A stretch of DNA of 53,680 nucleotides from Terriglobia bacterium (GTDB lineage: Bacteria > Acidobacteriota > Terriglobia > Terriglobales > Acidobacteriaceae). The stretch's first letter is position 1. Every line of letters starts with the position of its first letter. Location of the stretch: assembly GCA_020073105.1 (NCBI GenBank), contig JAIQFW010000001.1, positions 1 through 53,680 of the forward strand, written 5' to 3'. Below, one piece after another: positions 4,987-43,215 of the stretch. The notes beneath the pieces were generated by a model. It did no database searches and was not told the DNA's origin. It was given only the letters and a program-made list of their open reading frames with translations. The translations under genes were made by a program, and so were the position numbers.

Positions 4987-6516
4987 CTATCGTCTCGACA
5001 GCTTGAATACGTACAACCTGCCGTGTGGCGGAGACAGCTGATCCGCCGAGCCGAAGTACACAGTCCCATTGACCACCGCCGCCGACGAGGAAACGATGGG
5101 CTCATTGTGAGTCAACAACTGGGTGAGCGGCAGACAGATGGGCTGGCCGCAGCCCCTCGCGTCGAATACTTCCATCATGCCGTTGTTTTCACCGACATAC
5201 ACCACGCCGTTGGCGACGGTGGGCGACGACACCATCGCCGCCTGTGCACCCACCGCCGACCCTCGCCACAAGGGTTGGCAGACCGGGCCGCCACACCCAT
5301 GCGCGTCGAAGGCGTATAGAAGGTCATCTCCTCCTCCCAGGTAGACCACGCCGTTGGCCACGGCCGGCGATGACTCGATAAATTCGCCGGTCGCCCCCAC
5401 CCACAACGGGGAACAGGTGGGTTGTCCACAACCTTGCGCGTTGAAAACGTAGAGGTCTTGATCGAAGGCAGCAACATACAGCAAGCCGTTGACGATGGTT
5501 GCACTCGATCCAGAGATCGACGAACCTGTCTGGGCGGTCCAGATCGGTTGACAAGTGGGCTGGCCACAGCCCTGCGCGTTGAAGGCGTACAGTTTGCCAT
5601 CCGTCGCACCGATGTAAACCACGCCCGCGGCCACGGCGGCGGTGGAGTAAATGTGTTGGCCGGTGGTCGCCGTCCAGACGGCGGAACAGCGGTTCTGTCC
5701 GCAACCCTTGGCGTCGAAGGCATAGAGCTTGCCGTCCGCTGCGCCGATATACACGAAGCCGCCGGCAACCACGGGAGAGCTCTCGACAACTCCTGAACCC
5801 AACGTTCCTGTCCACAACGGTTGGCACGTGGGTTGGCCGCAGCCCTTGGCCTTGAAGGCATAAAGCTTGCGGTCGGCAGAGCCGATGTACACCACGCCAT
5901 TCGCCACCGCCGGAGAGGAAGTAATGTCGTTATTGGTCGGCCCGCTCCACAGCGGTGAACAGAACTCCTGGCCGCAGCCATTGGCGTCGAACGCGTAGAG
6001 GCTGCCGTCAAAAGAGCCGATGTAGACCACTCCGTCCACCACCGCTGGGGAGGAGAAGTCCACCAAGTCCCCCATCAGGCCGGTCCACGCAGGCGTCAAA
6101 AACTTGGCGTTCTTGGGAGTAATGGTGTTTTCAAATGGGTTGAAGCCCAGTCCGGTGACGGTTCCGCGGAACGTCGGCCAGTTCGTGGCCACGGTGAAGA
6201 TATGCTGGGCGCTGTCTCCGCTGGTCTCACCCGTGGCCTTCACGTCATACGGGCCGGGCTGCGCGGACCGCGGGACCTTCAATTCCTTGGAGAAGCTGCC
6301 TGTGTTGTCAGCCGGGATTTTGACTAGAATCATCGAGCCCACGGAGAGATCGACGATTTCGAGAGGCGCGAAGCCAGACCCCCTGGCAGTCACTTTGGAC
6401 GTAGGCGGCCCGGCTGGGGGCTTCATGGAAAGTGTGGCAGCCGAGCCAAGCTGCCCGGCCAGAAGGATTACGCACAAAGACGGGATGCGACGGAGCACGC
6501 GCGAGATCAGGACCAT
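4987..6516 (-). CDS. Exported PQQ-type beta-propeller with a Cys pair per repeat
   Basis: The 509-residue protein has a signal peptide (about 1-27) and an Ig-like or IPT-like beta domain (about 30-115, KVTARGSGFAP). It then has about seven blades of the form 'SSPAVANGVVYIGS.DGKLYAFDAKGCGQ..C.PLW'. The VVYIGS-DGKLYAFDA core is that of PQQ/BamB-type propeller repeats. Each repeat adds GCGxxxC just before a conserved PLW, giving one Cys pair per blade. The start was placed at ATG 6516, six bases after GAGGAG; a TTG 12 bases upstream overlaps that site. No dehydrogenase active site is visible, so a structural or binding role on the cell surface is more likely than an enzyme. Confidence 0.85.
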   Translation of the reverse strand: MVLISRVLRRIPSLCVILLAGQLGSAATLSMKPPAGPPTSKVTARGSGFAPLEIVDLSVGSMILVKIPADNTGSFSKELKVPRSAQPGPYDVKATGETSGDSAQHIFTVATNWPTFRGTVTGLGFNPFENTITPKNAKFLTPAWTGLMGDLVDFSSPAVVDGVVYIGSFDGSLYAFDANGCGQEFCSPLWSGPTNNDITSSPAVANGVVYIGSADRKLYAFKAKGCGQPTCQPLWTGTLGSGVVESSPVVAGGFVYIGAADGKLYAFDAKGCGQNRCSAVWTATTGQHIYSTAAVAAGVVYIGATDGKLYAFNAQGCGQPTCQPIWTAQTGSSISGSSATIVNGLLYVAAFDQDLYVFNAQGCGQPTCSPLWVGATGEFIESSPAVANGVVYLGGGDDLLYAFDAHGCGGPVCQPLWRGSAVGAQAAMVSSPTVANGVVYVGENNGMMEVFDARGCGQPICLPLTQLLTHNEPIVSSSAAVVNGTVYFGSADQLSPPHGRLYVFKLSRR

Positions 6517-6654
6517 GGTTCTCCTCAAGTTTCCAAACGGTCACTTATCTTGAAAGAGGAGGGGCCGTGAAGTGTCTTGCGGATGTAAAGAATTTGTCAA
6601 GAATTTTGCATGTGGACTAAGGAGGTTTACACCCAACGGCCAAGCGATCCCGCT

Positions 6655-23699: not shown

Positions 23700-23717
23700 T
23701 CGTGCCGAGGAATAATA

Positions 23718-23751
23718 CCAGTTCTCGGTTCCCAGTTCCCGGTTCTCAGTT
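23718..23751. repeat. ACTGAGAACT-type low-complexity repeat
   Basis: On the minus strand it is a tandem of GAACTG/GAACCG units (ACTGAGAACC, GGGAACTGGG). It touches the TAA stop of the four-helix-bundle gene (23750-23752). Further copies lie at 24168-24192, 25891-25923 and inside dnaE2 at 38152-38185. Confidence 0.8.
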
Positions 23752-24112
23752 ATGCGGCGGGTTTGATAGATCCAATCAGGCCGTTGAGAATGCGCCCCAT
23801 CTCTCCGGCTTTGTCCAGGATATTCTTGCCTTGTTCTGGGGTTATGTAACCCAGATTCTGAGCAATCATGAGCTGGGTTTCGACTTCAACCAGCGACCCT
23901 CGGGCACGGCTCAGGAAGAAGTGGAACTCCTGCGCTGAGTAACGTGCCTGTCCTTCAGCTATGTTCGTGGGAATCAGCACGGCAGATCTTCTCAGTTGAC
24001 TTGCCAGGCCGTAGATTTCGTCGCGAGGGAAGAGCTTTGTCACGCCATATACATCCATTACGAAATCCATGGCTTTCTGCCACGCAATCAGATCGCGGTA
24101 AGACTGTCCCAT
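23750..24112 (-). CDS. Four-helix-bundle protein (S23/IVP family)
   Basis: The 120-residue protein matches the four-helix-bundle family first found in intervening sequences of 23S rRNA genes. The N-terminal YRDLIAWQKAMDFVMDVY helix is followed by FPRDEIYGLASQLRRSAVLI, then PTNIAEGQAR, then two more helices. The family forms pentamers and is proposed to bind nucleic acid; its role is unproven. It is not inside an rRNA gene here. The gene is bracketed by ACTGAGAACT-type repeats in opposite orientation (23718-23751 and 24168-24192). Confidence 0.9.
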   Translation of the reverse strand: MGQSYRDLIAWQKAMDFVMDVYGVTKLFPRDEIYGLASQLRRSAVLIPTNIAEGQARYSAQEFHFFLSRARGSLVEVETQLMIAQNLGYITPEQGKNILDKAGEMGRILNGLIGSIKPAA

Positions 24113-26885: not shown

Positions 26886-26940
26886 CACAGCGATTCTACT
26901 ATGGGGCGTGGGGCGCCGGCGGTTACGGAGGTTATGGGGG

Positions 26941-26970
26941 CATTCAGCACTCAGCCGTCAGCATTCAGCC
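26941..26970. repeat. CAGCATTCAG repeat, left arm of an inverted pair
   Basis: It pairs with the copy at 27007-27038; together they form a palindrome of about 98 bases in the gap between the htpX stop and the MoxR start. The units are CAGCACTCAGC/CAGCATTCAGC. A third copy lies inside dnaE2 at 38271-38298. Confidence 0.8.
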
Positions 26971-27006
26971 ATGAAAGATTTTGGTAGTCTCCAGAATTTC
27001 AAGGGA

Positions 27007-27038
27007 CTGAATGCTGACTGCTGAATGCTGAGTGCTTA
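27007..27038. repeat. CAGCATTCAG repeat, right arm; carries the htpX stop
   Basis: Read on the minus strand it begins with the TAA stop of htpX and continues GCACTCAGCATTCAGC. By hand count 25 of 28 bases (27009-27036) match the copy inside dnaE2 at 38271-38298. Confidence 0.8.
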
Positions 27039-29591: not shown

Positions 29592-29690
29592 GAGTTCCAA
29601 AACTTCACAGGAGGTAAAGACATGCGCAAATTATGGTTGGTTGGCTGCACTGTATTGCTGCTGGCATCGCTGTCGCTGGCGAAGGACAAG
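29592..29690 (+). repeat. Leader/signal-peptide cassette, copy A
   Basis: The segment holds the leader, AGGAGGT (29609-29615), the ATG at 29622 and the signal peptide coding region. It is closely related to 30278-30372: both read GAGTTC-AAAAC, TCACAGGAGG, TGCG(C/T)AAATT and an identical ATCGCTGTCGCTGGCGAAG. The proteins after the cassette are unrelated. Confidence 0.8.
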
Positions 29691-30277: not shown

Positions 30278-30372
30278 TGAGTTCAAAACCTCACAGGAGG
30301 CGACGAGGACCTGCGTAAATTTGCGTTGATCGGCTGTTCGTTGTTGCTGTTGACATCGCTGTCGCTGGCGAA
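30278..30372 (+). repeat. Leader/signal-peptide cassette, copy B, with CTG for ATG
   Basis: This is the second copy of the cassette at 29592-29690. AGGAGG lies at 30295-30300. The codon that aligns with ATG 29622 is CTG at 30311-30313. A three-base insertion separates the ribosome site from it. Confidence 0.8.
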
Positions 30373-30766
30373 GACGGACGGCTCGGACGAAGAAGCGATC
30401 CGGAAACTTGATACGCAATGGTCGGCTGCGGCGCAGAGCAAAGATGTCGACAAGACGATCTCGTTCTATGCTGAAGACGGTTCCGCGCTTCCTGCCAATG
30501 CACCGAAGGCGACTGGGAAGGAACAGATTCGTGCGGTTTGGTCGCATCTGTTGTCCGAGCTCAAGGCCGACGTGAGCTTTGCGCCAACCAAGATTGAGGT
30601 GTCGAAGTCCAAGGACATGGCTTACGACGTGGGAACCTATGAGTTGAAAGTAAAGGATGCCCAGGGGAACCCCATGACCGAGATCGGCAAATACGTCGTA
30701 GTGTGGAAGAAGCAGCCGGACAAGCAGTGGAAAGTCATGGCTGACATCTTCAATGCGGACAAGTAA
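30311..30766 (+). CDS. Exported SnoaL/NTF2-like (DUF4440-type) protein, CTG start
   Basis: The 151-residue protein has a signal peptide (MRKFALIGCSLLLLTSLSLA) and then a cone-shaped NTF2-like fold: IRKLDTQWSAAAQSKDVDKT, FYAEDGSAL, and a C-terminal strand pair KYVVVWKKQPDKQWKVM. Families of this fold include ketosteroid isomerase and DUF4440 proteins. No catalytic pair is evident. The start is odd: alignment with the paralogous leader at 29.6 kb puts the first codon at CTG 30311, ten bases after AGGAGG. A TTG at 30326 would truncate the basic n-region of the signal peptide. Either CTG initiates or the gene is poorly translated. Confidence 0.75.
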   Translation: MRKFALIGCSLLLLTSLSLAKTDGSDEEAIRKLDTQWSAAAQSKDVDKTISFYAEDGSALPANAPKATGKEQIRAVWSHLLSELKADVSFAPTKIEVSKSKDMAYDVGTYELKVKDAQGNPMTEIGKYVVVWKKQPDKQWKVMADIFNADK

Positions 30767-37372: not shown

Positions 37373-40300
37373 TCAGTAGAAGTCGTGCGAGCTGGTCTCA
37401 GCGCGGGTGATGGCCAAAGGCAATACCCGCTCCGCCTTCACCGAAATTACATTGTCCTGATTCTGCAACATTCCCTCGACCATGAGAAATTGCGCGGAGC
37501 TTACCAGCAGCCGGTTCTTCTGAAACAAATCGGGATGAATGATCGCATTGGCCACGCCGGTTTCGTCTTCCAGGCTTAGAAAGACAAATCCCTTGGCTGT
37601 GCCGGGGCGCTGGCGGGCAATGACGCACCCTCCGATGCGTAAATGCTGTCCGTTAGGGATACCGCCAAGTTCGCTGGCCTTGCGGACCCCGATCGCCTGC
37701 ATGCGAGGCCGGTGATAGGCCATAGGGTGGGGACCGACTGTCATGCCCGTCCCCCGAAAGTCTGCCACCAGCCGCTCTTCCGCATTCATCGCACGCAACG
37801 GAGAGGCTGCGTCGGGTTCGGACAGGGCATCGAGCAGAGGACCGGAATGACGAACCGCGCGTTCCACTTGCCAGAGAGCGTCGCGGCGGTGAAGAGGAAG
37901 GTCATAATTTTTGATGGTTGATTGATTGTTGATTTGATCCGCGGGAATCCGCGCAGATCCGTGGCCGGTTTTTATTGAATTTAATGCGCCAATCTCCGCC
38001 AAAGTGTTGAGTTCGTCCTTGCGCAGTTCGGGCACGCGATGCACGAGATCGTGGATGGAAGTGAACGGCGCTGTATTACGTTGATGAACCAGCACCTGTG
38101 CGGCTTCTTCACGCAAACCGCGAGCATAGCGCAGACCCAGTCGCAGCGCCAAACTGGGAACTGGGAACTGGGAACTGACAACTGGTTTTTCAGTTAAAAA
38201 CAGGTCCCTCGACTCACCTTCTCCTTTGTCTTGCAAAGGAGAAGCCTCACTCGGGATGACAGATTGCACTGATTGCTGACTGCTGATTGCTGAATGCTCC
38301 AGCGTGCACTGCCACTCCGACTTCATCACGTCAATCGGCAGGACCTTCAGCCCGTGCCGTTGCGCGTCCTTCACAATCGTCGCCGGGTGATAGAAGCCCA
38401 TCGGCTGATTATTCAGCAGCGCCGCGGTGAACGCCGCCAGGTAATGACACTTCAAATAAGCGCTGGCATACGCAATCAGCGCGAAGCTGGCAGCGTGCGA
38501 TTCGGGAAATCCGTAAAGAGCGAACGAAGTGATCGACAGAATGATCTGTTCCTGGCCTTCCTGCGAGATGCCATTCTGCGTCATACCCGCCCGCAGCCTG
38601 GCTTCGATCTCTTTCATGCGGGCTTGCGAGCGCTTGAATCCCATAGCGCGGCGCAGATCTTCGGCCTCGCCTCCGCTGAAGTTGGCAGCCACCATAGCGA
38701 TGCGCAGCAACTGTTCCTGGAAAAGAGGTACCCCGAGAGTGCGCTTCAGCACCGGTTCCAGCGAAGGATGCGGATAAGTCACCGGTTCGCGCCCCTGGCG
38801 GCGCTGCAAGTAAGGATTCACCATTTGCCCCACAATCGGCCCGGGGCGAATGATGGCGACTTCCACCACAATGTCATAGAAGCACTGCGGACGTAAGCGC
38901 GGCAGGCACGACATCTGCGCCCGGCTCTCGACCTGGAACATGCCGATGGTGTCGGCCTTCTGCAAGGCGGAATAGACCGCAGGATCGTCCGCAGGCAGAT
39001 GGGCCAGGTCCACTTCCTCCTTGTAATGATCGCGGATGAGTTGGAGGGAATCTTCCAGAACCGCCATCATGCCCAGCCCGAGCAGGTCAACTTTGATGAT
39101 GCCAAGATCGGCGCAGTCTTCTTTGTCCCACTGAACGACCACCCGGCCCGGCATGGCCGCCGGTTCCAGCGGGACCACGGAATCAAGTTGCCCCTGGCAG
39201 ATCACCATGCCCCCGGAATGCTGGCCCAGGTGGCGCGGTAAATCCTGTACCGCGACACAGAGCTCGAAATATTTGCGTAACCGTGGATGCTTCACATCCA
39301 GTCCCGCATCACGAAAACGGTGATCGAAGGCATCGTTAGCGTCTCGATATTCCCAGGTGGCAACGGCCGCCGAAAGTTTGTCGAGCGTCTCCGGATCAAA
39401 TCCCAGTGCCTTGCCGATTTCACGCCCCGCCATGCGGCTGCGGTAGGTGATCACGTTGGCAGTCATCGCCGCGCCGCGCTCGCCATAGCGCTTATACAGA
39501 TATTGAATGACGCGTTCGCGCTGGTCGCCGCTGGGGAGATCGAGATCGATGTCAGGCCACTCGCCACGTTCTTCGGAGAGAAAGCGTTCGAAGAGCAACT
39601 CCATGCCCACCGGATCGACGGCGGTAATGCCCAGCGAATAGCAGACGGCGCTGTTGGCTGCCGAGCCGCGTCCTTGCACCAGAATGTTCTGTTCGCGGCA
39701 AAAGCGGACCAGGTCCCAGACAATGAGAAAGTAACCGGCGAGGGCGAGCTTCTCGATCAGTTTCAATTCGCGATCAATTTGGCGGCGGGCGCGTTCTTTC
39801 AAATCTGCAGACGCGCGGCCATAGCGTTGCTGAAAACCTTCCCGAGTGCGCTCCCGCAGGAACGACATCATGGATTCACCTTCGGGCACGGGATATTTGG
39901 GGAATTCGTAACCCAGATCCTCGAGCGTGAATTCGAGACGAGAAGAAAGTTCCGCCGTGTTGGCGATGGCCTCGGGAAGGTCGGCGAAAAGCGCTTGCAT
40001 CTGCTGCGGGGATTTCAGATGACACTCGGAATTGCGTGCCAACAAACGTCCTGCAGTGGCCAGCGTGCGGTGATGGCGAATCGCGGTAAACACGTCGCAC
40101 AGTTCGTGCTCGCGAGTGGTGGTATAACGCACGCCGTTAGTGGCTAGTATCGGGAGTTGGAGGGAGCGTGCAATTTCGATGGCGGCATGATTTTGTCCCT
40201 CCTGTTCGCGATGAAAATGGCGCTGCAGTTCGACGTAAACATTGTCGCGGCCGAAGATGTCGGTCAGACGTTCAGCACAACAGCGTGCTTCTTCCCTGCC

Positions 40301-40837
40301 GCCATTTTTCAGGGCAAAGGCCAAAGGGCCGTCTTCACTGCCGGTCAGGCAAATCAATCCCGCGGCGTGTTCCCGGAGTTCTTCCTCGTGGACTGCTCCT
40401 TCACCTTTTGCCGCCCGCAGCTTCATCTTGGTGATCAGGCGGCAGAGGTTCTGATAGCCGGGACGGGAAGAGGCGATTAAAGGGAGCCGAAACGGTTTTC
40501 TGGGTTTGTCATTCCGAGCAAAGCGAGGAATCCCTATCTTCCTCGCGTATTGCGGGGGGCAGGGATCCTTCGACTCACTTTCCTCGCGCAAGCGCGAGGA
40601 AGAATCGCTCAGGATGACAGGGCTAAAAGTGTCGCATGTTACCTCCGCTCCGATATGCGCCTTGATCCCAGCCTTCTTGGCCGCCATGTGGAAGCGCGGC
40701 GAGCCGTAGACGCCGTCGCGATCGAGCAGCGCCATGGCCGGCATGTTCAGATTGGCGCAGGTTGCAATCAGGGTCTCGGGCAGGGAAGCGCCTTCCAGAA
40801 AGCTGAAGGCAGAGCGGGAATGGAGCTCGATATACAT
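37373..40837 (-). CDS. dnaE2: Error-prone DNA polymerase DnaE2, with three in-frame repeat insertions
   Basis: The 1154-residue C-family polymerase is of the translesion type used in damage-induced mutagenesis with ImuA/ImuB. The N-terminal PHP domain starts MYIELHSRSAFSFLEGASLP. Polymerase motifs include the catalytic acids in PDIDLDLPSG (about 430) and SHAASFALIAYASAYLK. An OB domain near the C terminus (GGCVIARQRPGTAKGFVFLS) completes it. DnaE2 proteins are usually about 1020-1090 long. The excess lies in three low-complexity segments, at about residues 72-112, 846-895 and 954-979, each encoded by dispersed repeats. The frame stays open through all three. imuA and imuB are not adjacent; msrA lies upstream. 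Whether the enzyme is active is unknown. Confidence 0.93.
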   Translation of the reverse strand: MYIELHSRSAFSFLEGASLPETLIATCANLNMPAMALLDRDGVYGSPRFHMAAKKAGIKAHIGAEVTCDTFSPVILSDSSSRLREESESKDPCPPQYARKIGIPRFARNDKPRKPFRLPLIASSRPGYQNLCRLITKMKLRAAKGEGAVHEEELREHAAGLICLTGSEDGPLAFALKNGGREEARCCAERLTDIFGRDNVYVELQRHFHREQEGQNHAAIEIARSLQLPILATNGVRYTTTREHELCDVFTAIRHHRTLATAGRLLARNSECHLKSPQQMQALFADLPEAIANTAELSSRLEFTLEDLGYEFPKYPVPEGESMMSFLRERTREGFQQRYGRASADLKERARRQIDRELKLIEKLALAGYFLIVWDLVRFCREQNILVQGRGSAANSAVCYSLGITAVDPVGMELLFERFLSEERGEWPDIDLDLPSGDQRERVIQYLYKRYGERGAAMTANVITYRSRMAGREIGKALGFDPETLDKLSAAVATWEYRDANDAFDHRFRDAGLDVKHPRLRKYFELCVAVQDLPRHLGQHSGGMVICQGQLDSVVPLEPAAMPGRVVVQWDKEDCADLGIIKVDLLGLGMMAVLEDSLQLIRDHYKEEVDLAHLPADDPAVYSALQKADTIGMFQVESRAQMSCLPRLRPQCFYDIVVEVAIIRPGPIVGQMVNPYLQRRQGREPVTYPHPSLEPVLKRTLGVPLFQEQLLRIAMVAANFSGGEAEDLRRAMGFKRSQARMKEIEARLRAGMTQNGISQEGQEQIILSITSFALYGFPESHAASFALIAYASAYLKCHYLAAFTAALLNNQPMGFYHPATIVKDAQRHGLKVLPIDVMKSEWQCTLEHSAISSQQSVQSVIPSEASPLQDKGEGESRDLFLTEKPVVSSQFPVPSLALRLGLRYARGLREEAAQVLVHQRNTAPFTSIHDLVHRVPELRKDELNTLAEIGALNSIKTGHGSARIPADQINNQSTIKNYDLPLHRRDALWQVERAVRHSGPLLDALSEPDAASPLRAMNAEERLVADFRGTGMTVGPHPMAYHRPRMQAIGVRKASELGGIPNGQHLRIGGCVIARQRPGTAKGFVFLSLEDETGVANAIIHPDLFQKNRLLVSSAQFLMVEGMLQNQDNVISVKAERVLPLAITRAETSSHDFY
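37936..37968. repeat. ATCCGTGG-family repeat inside dnaE2
   Basis: Bases 37937-37966 match 27 of 30 with the intergenic copy at 43171-43200. Read on the minus strand it encodes TGHGSARIPADQ between GALNSI and HRRDALW of DnaE2. Confidence 0.85.
38152..38300. repeat. Composite repeat block inside dnaE2
   Basis: Three elements lie in a row. First is an ACTGGGAACTGG tandem (38152-38185). Next is a hairpin with perfect 11-bp arms (38218-38228 and 38234-38244) inside a CTCGGGATGACA-type element. Last is a GCTGACTGCTGATT tandem (38271-38298). Together they encode about 49 residues, including VIPSEASPL and SSQFPVPS. Confidence 0.85.
40507..40619. repeat. TGTCATTCCGAGC palindromic element inside dnaE2
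   Basis: The 113-base element has ends TGTCATTCCGAGC and GCTCAGGATGACA, which pair with few mismatches. Inner arms are CTTCCTCGCG and CGCGAGGAAG. It encodes about 40 residues (ILSDSSSRLREE, IPRFARND) within the PHP domain of DnaE2. Confidence 0.85.
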
Positions 40838-40953: not shown

Positions 40954-41430
40954 TTACGCTTTGATGTGGCAGGTCGCCAGACCCTTCTTCTCCAGATACT
41001 GCTGGTGGTAGTCCTCGGCTTCGTAGAACGTCGCCTCTGGGACGATCTGGGTGACAATGGGCTTGCTGAAGCGCCCGGATTTCCCCAGGGCTTCCTTGGA
41101 AGCTTTGGCGACAGCTTCCTGTTCGGGGGAAATAAAGAAGATCGCCGACCGGTATTGCGTGCCCCAGTCCGGTCCCTGGCGATTCAGTTGCGTGGGATCG
41201 TGGTTCTCCCAGAAAACCTCGAGCAGCTTGTCGTAGGAAAGCTTGGCCGGGTCGTAGGTGACTTCGACGGCTTCAGCATGCCCGGTGGTGTTGGTGCAAA
41301 CTTCTTTGTAATTGGGGTCTTGGGTCTTCCCGCCGGTATAACCGACCCGGGTCGAAATCACGCCCGGCAATTGGCGAAAAGTGGCTTCGACTCCCCAAAA
41401 ACAGCCTGCGGCAAAAATGGCTTTGGCCAT
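40954..41430 (-). CDS. msrA: Peptide methionine-(S)-S-oxide reductase MsrA
   Basis: The 158-residue enzyme repairs S-epimers of methionine sulfoxide in proteins. The active-site Cys is in AAGCFWGVEATF (about 7-18). Further family motifs are YTGG, TGHAEAVEVTYDP and EDYHQQYLEK. The C-terminal TCHIKA may hold a resolving Cys. Length and start fit the family. Thioredoxin would normally recycle it. The gene ends just upstream of a nested inverted repeat and dnaE2. Confidence 0.96.
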   Translation of the reverse strand: MAKAIFAAGCFWGVEATFRQLPGVISTRVGYTGGKTQDPNYKEVCTNTTGHAEAVEVTYDPAKLSYDKLLEVFWENHDPTQLNRQGPDWGTQYRSAIFFISPEQEAVAKASKEALGKSGRFSKPIVTQIVPEATFYEAEDYHQQYLEKKGLATCHIKA

Positions 41431-43106: not shown

Positions 43107-43204
43107 CAGCCACAGATTTACACGGATCAACACGGATAAATTTTTGTTAAGAAGAATTGCTTTGACCTTAATCCGTGGAAATCCGCGCTGATCCGTGGCC
43201 GCTA
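43107..43204. repeat. ATCCGTGG-family inverted repeat
   Basis: The left part has CCACAGATTTACACGGATCA and the right part the roughly complementary ATCCGCGCTGATCCGTGGCC. The right arm is the copy that matches the dnaE2 insertion (27 of 30). The repeat ends 12 bases from the pyrD stop. Confidence 0.8.
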
Positions 43205-43215
43205 TTCTGAGTGGA

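Follow-up and report, generated by a model that had tools for sequence, protein, structure and literature searches.

The window analysed here (53,680 nt of a Terriglobia bacterium, being contig C170 of a 5.14 Mb genome in 308 contigs) carries dnaE2, the gene of an error-prone DNA polymerase, in which three segments consist of repeats that are dispersed between genes elsewhere and are read here in frame, with several repeat families present in this one polymerase gene. The same three sites are long in most of the related DnaE2 sequences, the inserts at these sites vary by species, and repeat matches are also over-represented in imuA and imuB, the other two genes of the imuA-imuB-dnaE2 cassette. 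In this group of soil bacteria, the error-prone synthesis machinery has the look of a lasting landing zone for repeats. Unrelated families of dispersed repeats probably entered the loops of dnaE2 by separate events, and tolerance of these inserts, without benefit to the cell, is the explanation preferred here.

Dispersed repeats within the frame of dnaE2

The best NCBIfam match of DnaE2 is PRK05672 (error-prone DNA polymerase; 1225 bits, above the cut-off), which spans the whole protein and has a model length of 1047, so that the 1154 residues of DnaE2 exceed the model by 107. This agrees with the initial annotation, which had put the protein about 100 residues above the usual length and had located the excess in residues 72-112, 846-895 and 954-979; these segments fit the aligned intervals 69-114, 850-894 and 958-980. 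Apart from the inserted loops, the sequence suggests an otherwise intact polymerase. Residues D429, D431, D433 and D584, which by homology are presumably the catalytic ones, are invariant across 43 aligned sequences, and the structure model resembles solved DnaE structures, with 7pu7 as its top Foldseek match.

In this model (AlphaFold, alignment of 43 sequences, mean predicted local distance difference test (pLDDT) 73.7), site 1 joins strands 59-68 and 116-122, site 2 joins strands 845-848 and 896-899, and site 3 joins helices 940-948 and 984-995. All three inserts are thus located between strands or helices, and pLDDT is low there (below 50 at residues 74-93, 95-110, 852-892 and 958-979). 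Judging from the model, the inserts probably form disordered loops on DnaE2.

The element in site 1 is a complete one of the TGTCAT type, the inverted ends of which read TGTCATCCTGAGC...GCTCGGAATGACA. Such terminal inverted repeats, which resemble those of miniature inverted-repeat transposable elements (MITEs), were seen for the TGTCAT family only. Insert 2 is a compound of three repeat units (a heptamer array, half a TGTCAT element and a second heptamer array), while insert 3 holds a repeat of the ATCCGCGG type (Table 1). The match of insert 3 to 43171-43200 (27 of 30 bases) and that of part of insert 2 to 27009-27036 (25 of 28) are exactly as initially reported. Within the 5.8 kb of spacers in the window, inserts 3 and 2 score 27 and 26, whereas 60 random 30-mers from the dnaE2 core score at most 20/30. 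Between them, the repeat identities and the controls bear out the claim that the three segments are dispersed intergenic repeats of several families, and the frame is indeed open through all three.

The wider distribution of the repeats was followed in a sample of the window's genome (1.39 Mb in 101 stretches, with 1190 called genes and 838 spacers; about a quarter of the genome). Here, the TGTCAT end motif occurs 29 times in 25 of the 838 spacers and 10 times in nine of the 1190 genes, dnaE2 among them. Exact 13-mer counting failed to detect the dnaE2 repeats, and blastn against the spacers was used instead. On this measure dnaE2 tops the sample, matching 23 spacers in four interior segments (the runner-up gene matches 11). 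None of the 10 complete TGTCAT elements (20 strand-wise matches) has the directly flanking repeat of at least 2 nt that a target-site duplication would leave. Y1-type transposases, which are like those associated with repetitive extragenic palindromic (REP) sequences (REP-associated tyrosine transposases, RAYTs), are possible movers of the repeats; the window's genome contains nine matches to PF01797 above the cut-off, on contigs C218, C233, C18, C53, C149, C299, C246 and C41. The gene that holds the match on C218 (within L280:801-1493) has matches to spacer repeats of its own.

Recurrence and turnover in relatives

For comparison, DnaE2 from 80 named loci, the best of 423, was added to the window's protein in an alignment of 81 rows. 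The nearest named relatives are metagenome-assembled Acidobacteriota, mostly Terriglobales and including Candidatus Sulfotelmatobacter, with one exception by title. This exception, L095 (VFZK01000241.1), is titled Acidimicrobiia bacterium and has a DnaE2 that groups with those of the Acidobacteriota; mislabelling or contamination of the bin is possible.

In a site-length profile of 75 of the 81 rows (L049, L075, L076, L081, L103 and L110 being left out), intervals of at least 10 residues were found at sites 1, 2 and 3 in 53, 52 and 56 DnaE2 sequences, respectively, that of the window included, compared to 5 of 75 at the next place. The largest inserts at site 2 reach 109 residues. The letters of the inserts vary by species and are often those of other translated repeats, and the same families reappear at different sites. 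When compared with 1058 intergenic spacers (at E<0.01), 106 of the 161 inserts find a match, against 14 of 483 core segments of equal length and 3 of 161 shuffled inserts.

In-frame stops are absent from all 161 inserts, those of the window among them, while frames +1 and +2 hold stops in 90 and 127 of the 161, a count that is partly circular since the open reading frames (ORFs) were picked by similarity. None of the fetched DnaE2 loci is broken at an insert site (the premature end of L074, near residue 1037, lies away from the sites). The open frames suggest that the inserts are translated as part of DnaE2, and because dozens of separate assemblies keep the frame open, an assembly artefact, which the initial annotation had named as a possible objection, is very unlikely.

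Several relatives have short linkers at all three sites, as do the DnaE2 proteins of Burkholderia, Komagataeibacter and Ensifer plasmids. Because these three proteobacterial proteins have short linkers, the inserts are most simply taken as derived. The initial annotation had also considered that orthologues might carry equally long, conserved segments free of repeats at the same places. Most orthologues are indeed long there, but the segments are mostly non-conserved and many consist of other repeats, so that the repeat reading stands except in part at site 1. At this site, a conserved linker of about 18 residues (compared to 44 residues in the window's DnaE2), lacking any repeat character, is present in 7 of 30 sequences (L021, L024, L026, L027 and L029-L031), as well as in L090, L092, L095 and L293, which shows that variation at site 1 also arises where repeats are absent.

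The content of the sites turns over. On a tree of conserved columns (77 sequences; 4 of the 81 rows were left out here and in the pair comparisons), the recognised repeat families require at least 16, 25 and 24 changes at sites 1, 2 and 3, respectively. These counts are rough, because the family labels were made by hand and are coarse, with at least one of them wrong (site 1 of L035 was called PERT from the letters PERS, and resembles the ISDF type). Inserts were also compared within the 193 pairs of sequences whose cores are 86% identical or more, pairs that are mutually non-independent. At sites 1-3, the two inserts were alike in 57, 48 and 44 comparisons and unlike in 88, 126 and 129, while a long one faced a short one in 43, 17 and 18. 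L045 and L073, for example, have cores that are 94.1% identical and unlike inserts at site 1, whereas L079 and L080 (95.3% core identity) differ at site 2 by 62 versus 0 residues. The short site-1 linkers of L059 and L072 look like scars of shrunken inserts. As a side observation, the 62-residue difference makes L079 and L080 a good pair for defining the ends of an insertion.

At the nucleotide level, 82 of the 131 inserts of at least 60 nt have a folding z below -2, versus 4 of 131 core segments. The z values of the window's own inserts 1, 2 and 3 are -5.1, -2.3 and -1.7.

The imuA-imuB-dnaE2 cassette and other genes

In the window's genome an imuA-like and an imuB-like gene adjoin each other on contig C120 (L299: 319-2010 and 2007-2876), away from dnaE2, and the cassette appears to be split. 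Of the two encoded proteins, one has a RecA domain (Pfam above the cut-off; 43 bits to the ImuA model versus a cut-off of 150) and the other an IMS domain (Pfam above the cut-off; no match to an ImuB model). In relatives such as L033, homologues of this pair stand in order before dnaE2, and it is because of this gene order, together with the RecA and IMS domains, that the names imuA and imuB are used. Both genes on C120 match repeats internally. From the 80 loci, whole ORFs were obtained for 40 imuA and 64 imuB genes. With the window's own genes included, two places in ImuA hold at least 10 residues (in 30 and 31 of 41 sequences), and the N-terminal stretch of this protein is variable too; in ImuB there are three such places (in 38, 27 and 20 of 65 sequences). 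Of these ImuA and ImuB places, four were tested and showed no in-frame stop in any of 102 inserts, and much of the length variation of the two proteins is not recognisable as repeat.

Whether a gene has interior matches to at least two spacers was then scored against spacers from the window's genome and from G006, the genes of both genomes being left out (i.e. the window's own, L003 and L040, the last taken as the same locus as G006). Matches of this kind were found in 15 of 39 imuA, 8 of 63 imuB and 35 of 74 dnaE2 genes (58 of 176 together), compared to 0 of 180 neighbouring genes of the same loci; in the sample of the window's genome, 17 of 1092 genes qualified. The Fisher p for 58/176 versus 0/180 is about 6e-21, a nominal value since the species are related. 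Two "other" genes above the threshold (L043:2-1205 and L078:2-947) overlap imuA matches and were moved out of the control, which would otherwise stand at 2/182; unrecognised plus-strand genes within 2.7 kb before dnaE2 were likewise left out of it. At a threshold of at least one spacer, before reassignment and with 5 of the 81 dnaE2 rows left out, the counts are 19/41 for imuA, 15/65 for imuB, 45/76 for dnaE2, 10/185 for other genes and 53/1093 for the own sample. Gene length does not explain the excess, because the rates per kb (also before reassignment) are higher as well: 0.40, 0.09 and 0.14 for imuA, imuB and dnaE2, versus 0.012 for other and 0.015 for sampled genes.

The paralogue DnaE1 was used as a further control. 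At least two spacers were matched in none of 28 DnaE1 of relatives (at least one in 2 of 28), compared to 8 of 28 DnaE2, and the length variation of DnaE1 is confined to 10-11 residues at one place in at most 5 of 29 sequences.

The search for the same repeats in other genes, which the initial annotation had proposed, returned 19 of the 1190 sampled genes with interior matches to at least two spacers; dnaE2 comes first, and inserts elsewhere are sporadic. Matches close to gene starts probably reflect starts that were called too long. The second-ranked gene encodes an Lhr-type helicase (Pfam WH_Lhr above the cut-off; NCBIfam helicase models, one of them for a ligase-associated DNA-damage helicase, below theirs). 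This gene (contig C217, L279:1-4110) has an in-frame insert at residues 198-254, part of which is a TGTCAT element of 82 bp. The insert is missing in at least seven relatives (G003, G004, G006, G010, G011, G014 and G022), where the flanking matches are 6-12 nt apart. Other repeat-bearing genes encode a RecF/RecN/SMC-type protein, FolC, DusB, an RNB/S1 ribonuclease and a 4-hydroxybenzoyl-CoA reductase-like subunit, and one further gene is presumably valS. Since valS shows weak repeat content in relatives (3 of 28) and variable loops (in 7 and 13 of 28), repeat insertion is not confined to the cassette.

The neighbours of dnaE2 in the window are a gene at 40954-41430, which we take to be msrA, and a ccmF-like gene. 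Of the intergenic counterparts of insert 2 (Table 1), the heptamer pair extends as far as the stop codon with which the 27036-27896 gene ends (htpX in the initial annotation), and the single CAGTTCC-type repeat overlaps the final bases of one flanking gene. Repeats of other kinds are present elsewhere in the window: six copies of an 86-nt unit (5144-6054; identity with the reference copy 64-78%) inside the ORF at 4987-6528, four copies of a 78-nt unit (1942-2694) within the ORF at 1132-2973, and a pair (29619-29684 and 30308-30373; 79% identity over 66 nt) at or near the starts of small neighbouring ORFs, which is possibly a local duplication.

Table 1. Coordinates of dnaE2, its insert sites, their repeat units and the intergenic copies in the window
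Feature	Coordinates	Strand	Basis or remark
dnaE2, error-prone DNA polymerase III alpha-like protein, 1154 aa	37373..40837	minus	ORF call and NCBIfam match
Insert site 1, residues 70-114, between two strands of the PHP domain	40496..40630	minus	alignment and structure model
Complete 113-bp TGTCAT-type inverted-repeat element within site 1	40507..40619	minus	repeat comparison
Insert site 2, residues 850-893, between two short strands	38159..38290	minus	alignment and structure model
TCAGCAn-type heptamer repeat in insert 2	38268..38297	minus	31-nt copy 38268-38298 shares 90% identity with 27006-27036
Half of a TGTCAT-type element in insert 2	38203..38261	minus	repeat comparison
CAGTTCC-type heptamer repeat in insert 2	38149..38184	minus	matches 23714-23756 in inverted orientation
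Insert site 3, residues 957-979, between two helices	37901..37972	minus	alignment and structure model
ATCCGCGG-type repeat proper of insert 3	37934..37972	minus	an A-rich tail accompanies the repeat
Intergenic copy of the insert-3 repeat	43168..43206	plus	85% over 39 nt
Inverted pair of heptamer repeats between two called genes, copy of insert 2	26940..27036	.	
CAGTTCC-type heptamer repeat between two called genes	23714..23756	.	inverted relative to insert 2, 84% over 43 nt

Possible explanations and known systems

In the preferred explanation, repeats would be copied or mobilised throughout the genome, and dnaE2 would have acquired the TGTCAT inverted-repeat element, the heptamer repeats and the ATCCGCGG repeat in separate events. 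Survivors would be the copies that leave the frame open and land in loops able to bear them, while those that break the frame or the fold would be removed by selection, and the surviving inserts would decay and shrink, later to be replaced by new arrivals. The least certain step is why the ImuA-ImuB-DnaE2 mutasome should be over-represented; as a presumably damage-induced, rarely expressed and dispensable machine, it may be a place where ragged loops are cheap. A number of points weigh against this explanation. Tolerance alone gives no obvious reason for this cassette over the many other dispensable genes, only 17 of the 1092 sampled genes qualifying, and SOS regulation or weak expression of the cassette in this organism is an assumption. 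Segments of DnaE2 outside the inserts, such as 535-570, have a pLDDT below 50 as well, and low pLDDT at the inserts is therefore no proof of disorder. Furthermore, 55 of the 161 inserts are without a partner in the spacer pool, and 39 of 74 dnaE2 and 55 of 63 imuB genes match fewer than two spacers, because of which part of the variable sequence is possibly ordinary linker or decayed repeat.

That the inserts are nothing other than fast-evolving, low-complexity linkers, with a likeness to repeats that arose by chance, is highly improbable. These unmatched inserts, the conserved linker at site 1 in some relatives and the unrecognisable length variation of ImuA and ImuB are in keeping with it, but the match frequency of the inserts far exceeds that of the core and shuffled controls, the element in site 1 has exact ends, and the same repeat families occur at different sites and in spacers. 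For the majority of the inserts chance likeness was rejected. Some other mobile elements within genes are removed by splicing or bypass. A similar fate of the present inserts, which would then be spliced out or skipped by the ribosome rather than translated, is barely conceivable, given that about 223 stops would be expected in the 161 open inserts at the off-frame rate and that no broken site was seen in the fetched loci. It is very improbable that the elements act as RNA or DNA, for instance through hairpins by which translation would be slowed where domains meet, with the peptide being incidental. The sites do lie between folded segments and many of the inserts fold better than shuffled copies; 49 of the 131, however, miss the threshold of z < -2, so that the frame is kept in many without a marked hairpin, and structure would be expected, even without a function, of any repeat that is already palindromic outside genes.

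Selection for the inserts themselves, through a tuning of the mutation rate by mutasome activity, interactions or turnover (an idea raised in PMC3733652 for REPs in repair genes), is improbable too, although the three loops are long in most sequences despite their changing content and the cassette is singled out. Sequence, length and presence vary among close relatives (the 62 versus 0 residues of L079 and L080 being one case, within a range that extends to 109), no common motif was seen among the inserts, and their predicted order is low; a function that any flexible loop could carry would soften these points. Unlikely, if less so, is a coupling of insertion to the SOS response, by template switching or movement during repair into the mutasome and repair genes that are transcribed at that time. 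Consistent with such a coupling, all three cassette genes are affected and their neighbours are not, the Lhr-type helicase ranks second, the RecF/RecN/SMC-type protein is among the 19 sampled genes, and PMC3733652 lists REPs that other bacteria carry in their uvr, recBCD, polA and dnaE2 genes. The nine Y1-type transposase matches might supply the agent. On the other hand, other affected genes of this genome are metabolic or translational (FolC, DusB, the 4-hydroxybenzoyl-CoA reductase-like subunit, the RNB/S1 ribonuclease and the presumed valS), and a target-site duplication was found at none of the ten complete TGTCAT elements. It is, likewise, unlikely that the repeats prefer the SOS mutagenesis cassette as a target rather than being merely tolerated there, with insertion taking place during the damage response that transcribes imuA-imuB-dnaE2. 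If it were, the mutasome would be rewriting the loops of its own genes, a self-directed and damage-coupled form of protein change, which would also account for the bias of REPs towards repair genes reported in unrelated bacteria.

Whichever of tolerance, targeting or function singles out this mutagenesis machine (the question that the data pose), the old curiosity of palindromic repeats in dnaE2 and repair genes becomes a testable comparison, in which the same loops can be followed over many species with neighbouring genes and a paralogue as controls. The loops form a natural series of replacements in one polymerase, and the inserts account in part for the heterogeneity in length that has been reported for DnaE2. 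For annotation, they are a warning that a translated repeat may truly belong to a conserved enzyme.

REPs inside dnaE2 and the protein-coding palindromes of Rickettsia are already known, whereas the recurrence, turnover and cassette-wide bias of repeats in dnaE2 were not found described in the open-licence literature searched. In the passages used of PMC3733652 (2013), REPs are reported inside coding sequences, many of them in replication and repair genes, with dnaE2 named; the authors consider the choice of genes hardly fortuitous and speculate on mutator effects. Those REPs are GTAG- or CGTC-tagged and are reported species by species, and genes of one functional category are hit at different sites, except for recB of two Xanthomonas. 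Here, in contrast, several other families occupy the same three loops over many species, close relatives differ, and the pattern extends to imuA and imuB. As far as the site-1 element is concerned, its 113 bp running from TGTCAT to ATGACA are also unlike a tagged REP of 20-40 bp. The heptamers have a counterpart in PMC4679880, parts of which describe tandem heptanucleotide repeats in the intergenic DNA of Beggiatoaceae and cyanobacteria; the heptamers in the present case are different ones, often form inverted pairs and are found within coding loops. With respect to length, PMC3919608 describes DnaE2, the conserved core included, as shorter and considerably more heterogeneous than DnaE1. Its available passages name no intergenic repeats as a cause, whereas here repeats underlie much of the variation at the three sites.

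The likeness to Rickettsia palindromic elements, which had been drawn at the outset, seems apt in kind. Those elements are found in frame in unrelated genes and are predicted to be compatible with protein structure (PMC10969869, in the part consulted). Shared with them are the presence of the same families between genes and in frame inside genes, the hairpin-forming palindromes (here in 82 of 131 inserts rather than in all) and the unrelated nature of the genes that are hit, with fold compatibility seen here for DnaE2 only. The present system differs from that of Rickettsia in its phylum, in the several unrelated families within one gene, and in the recurrent use of fixed sites.

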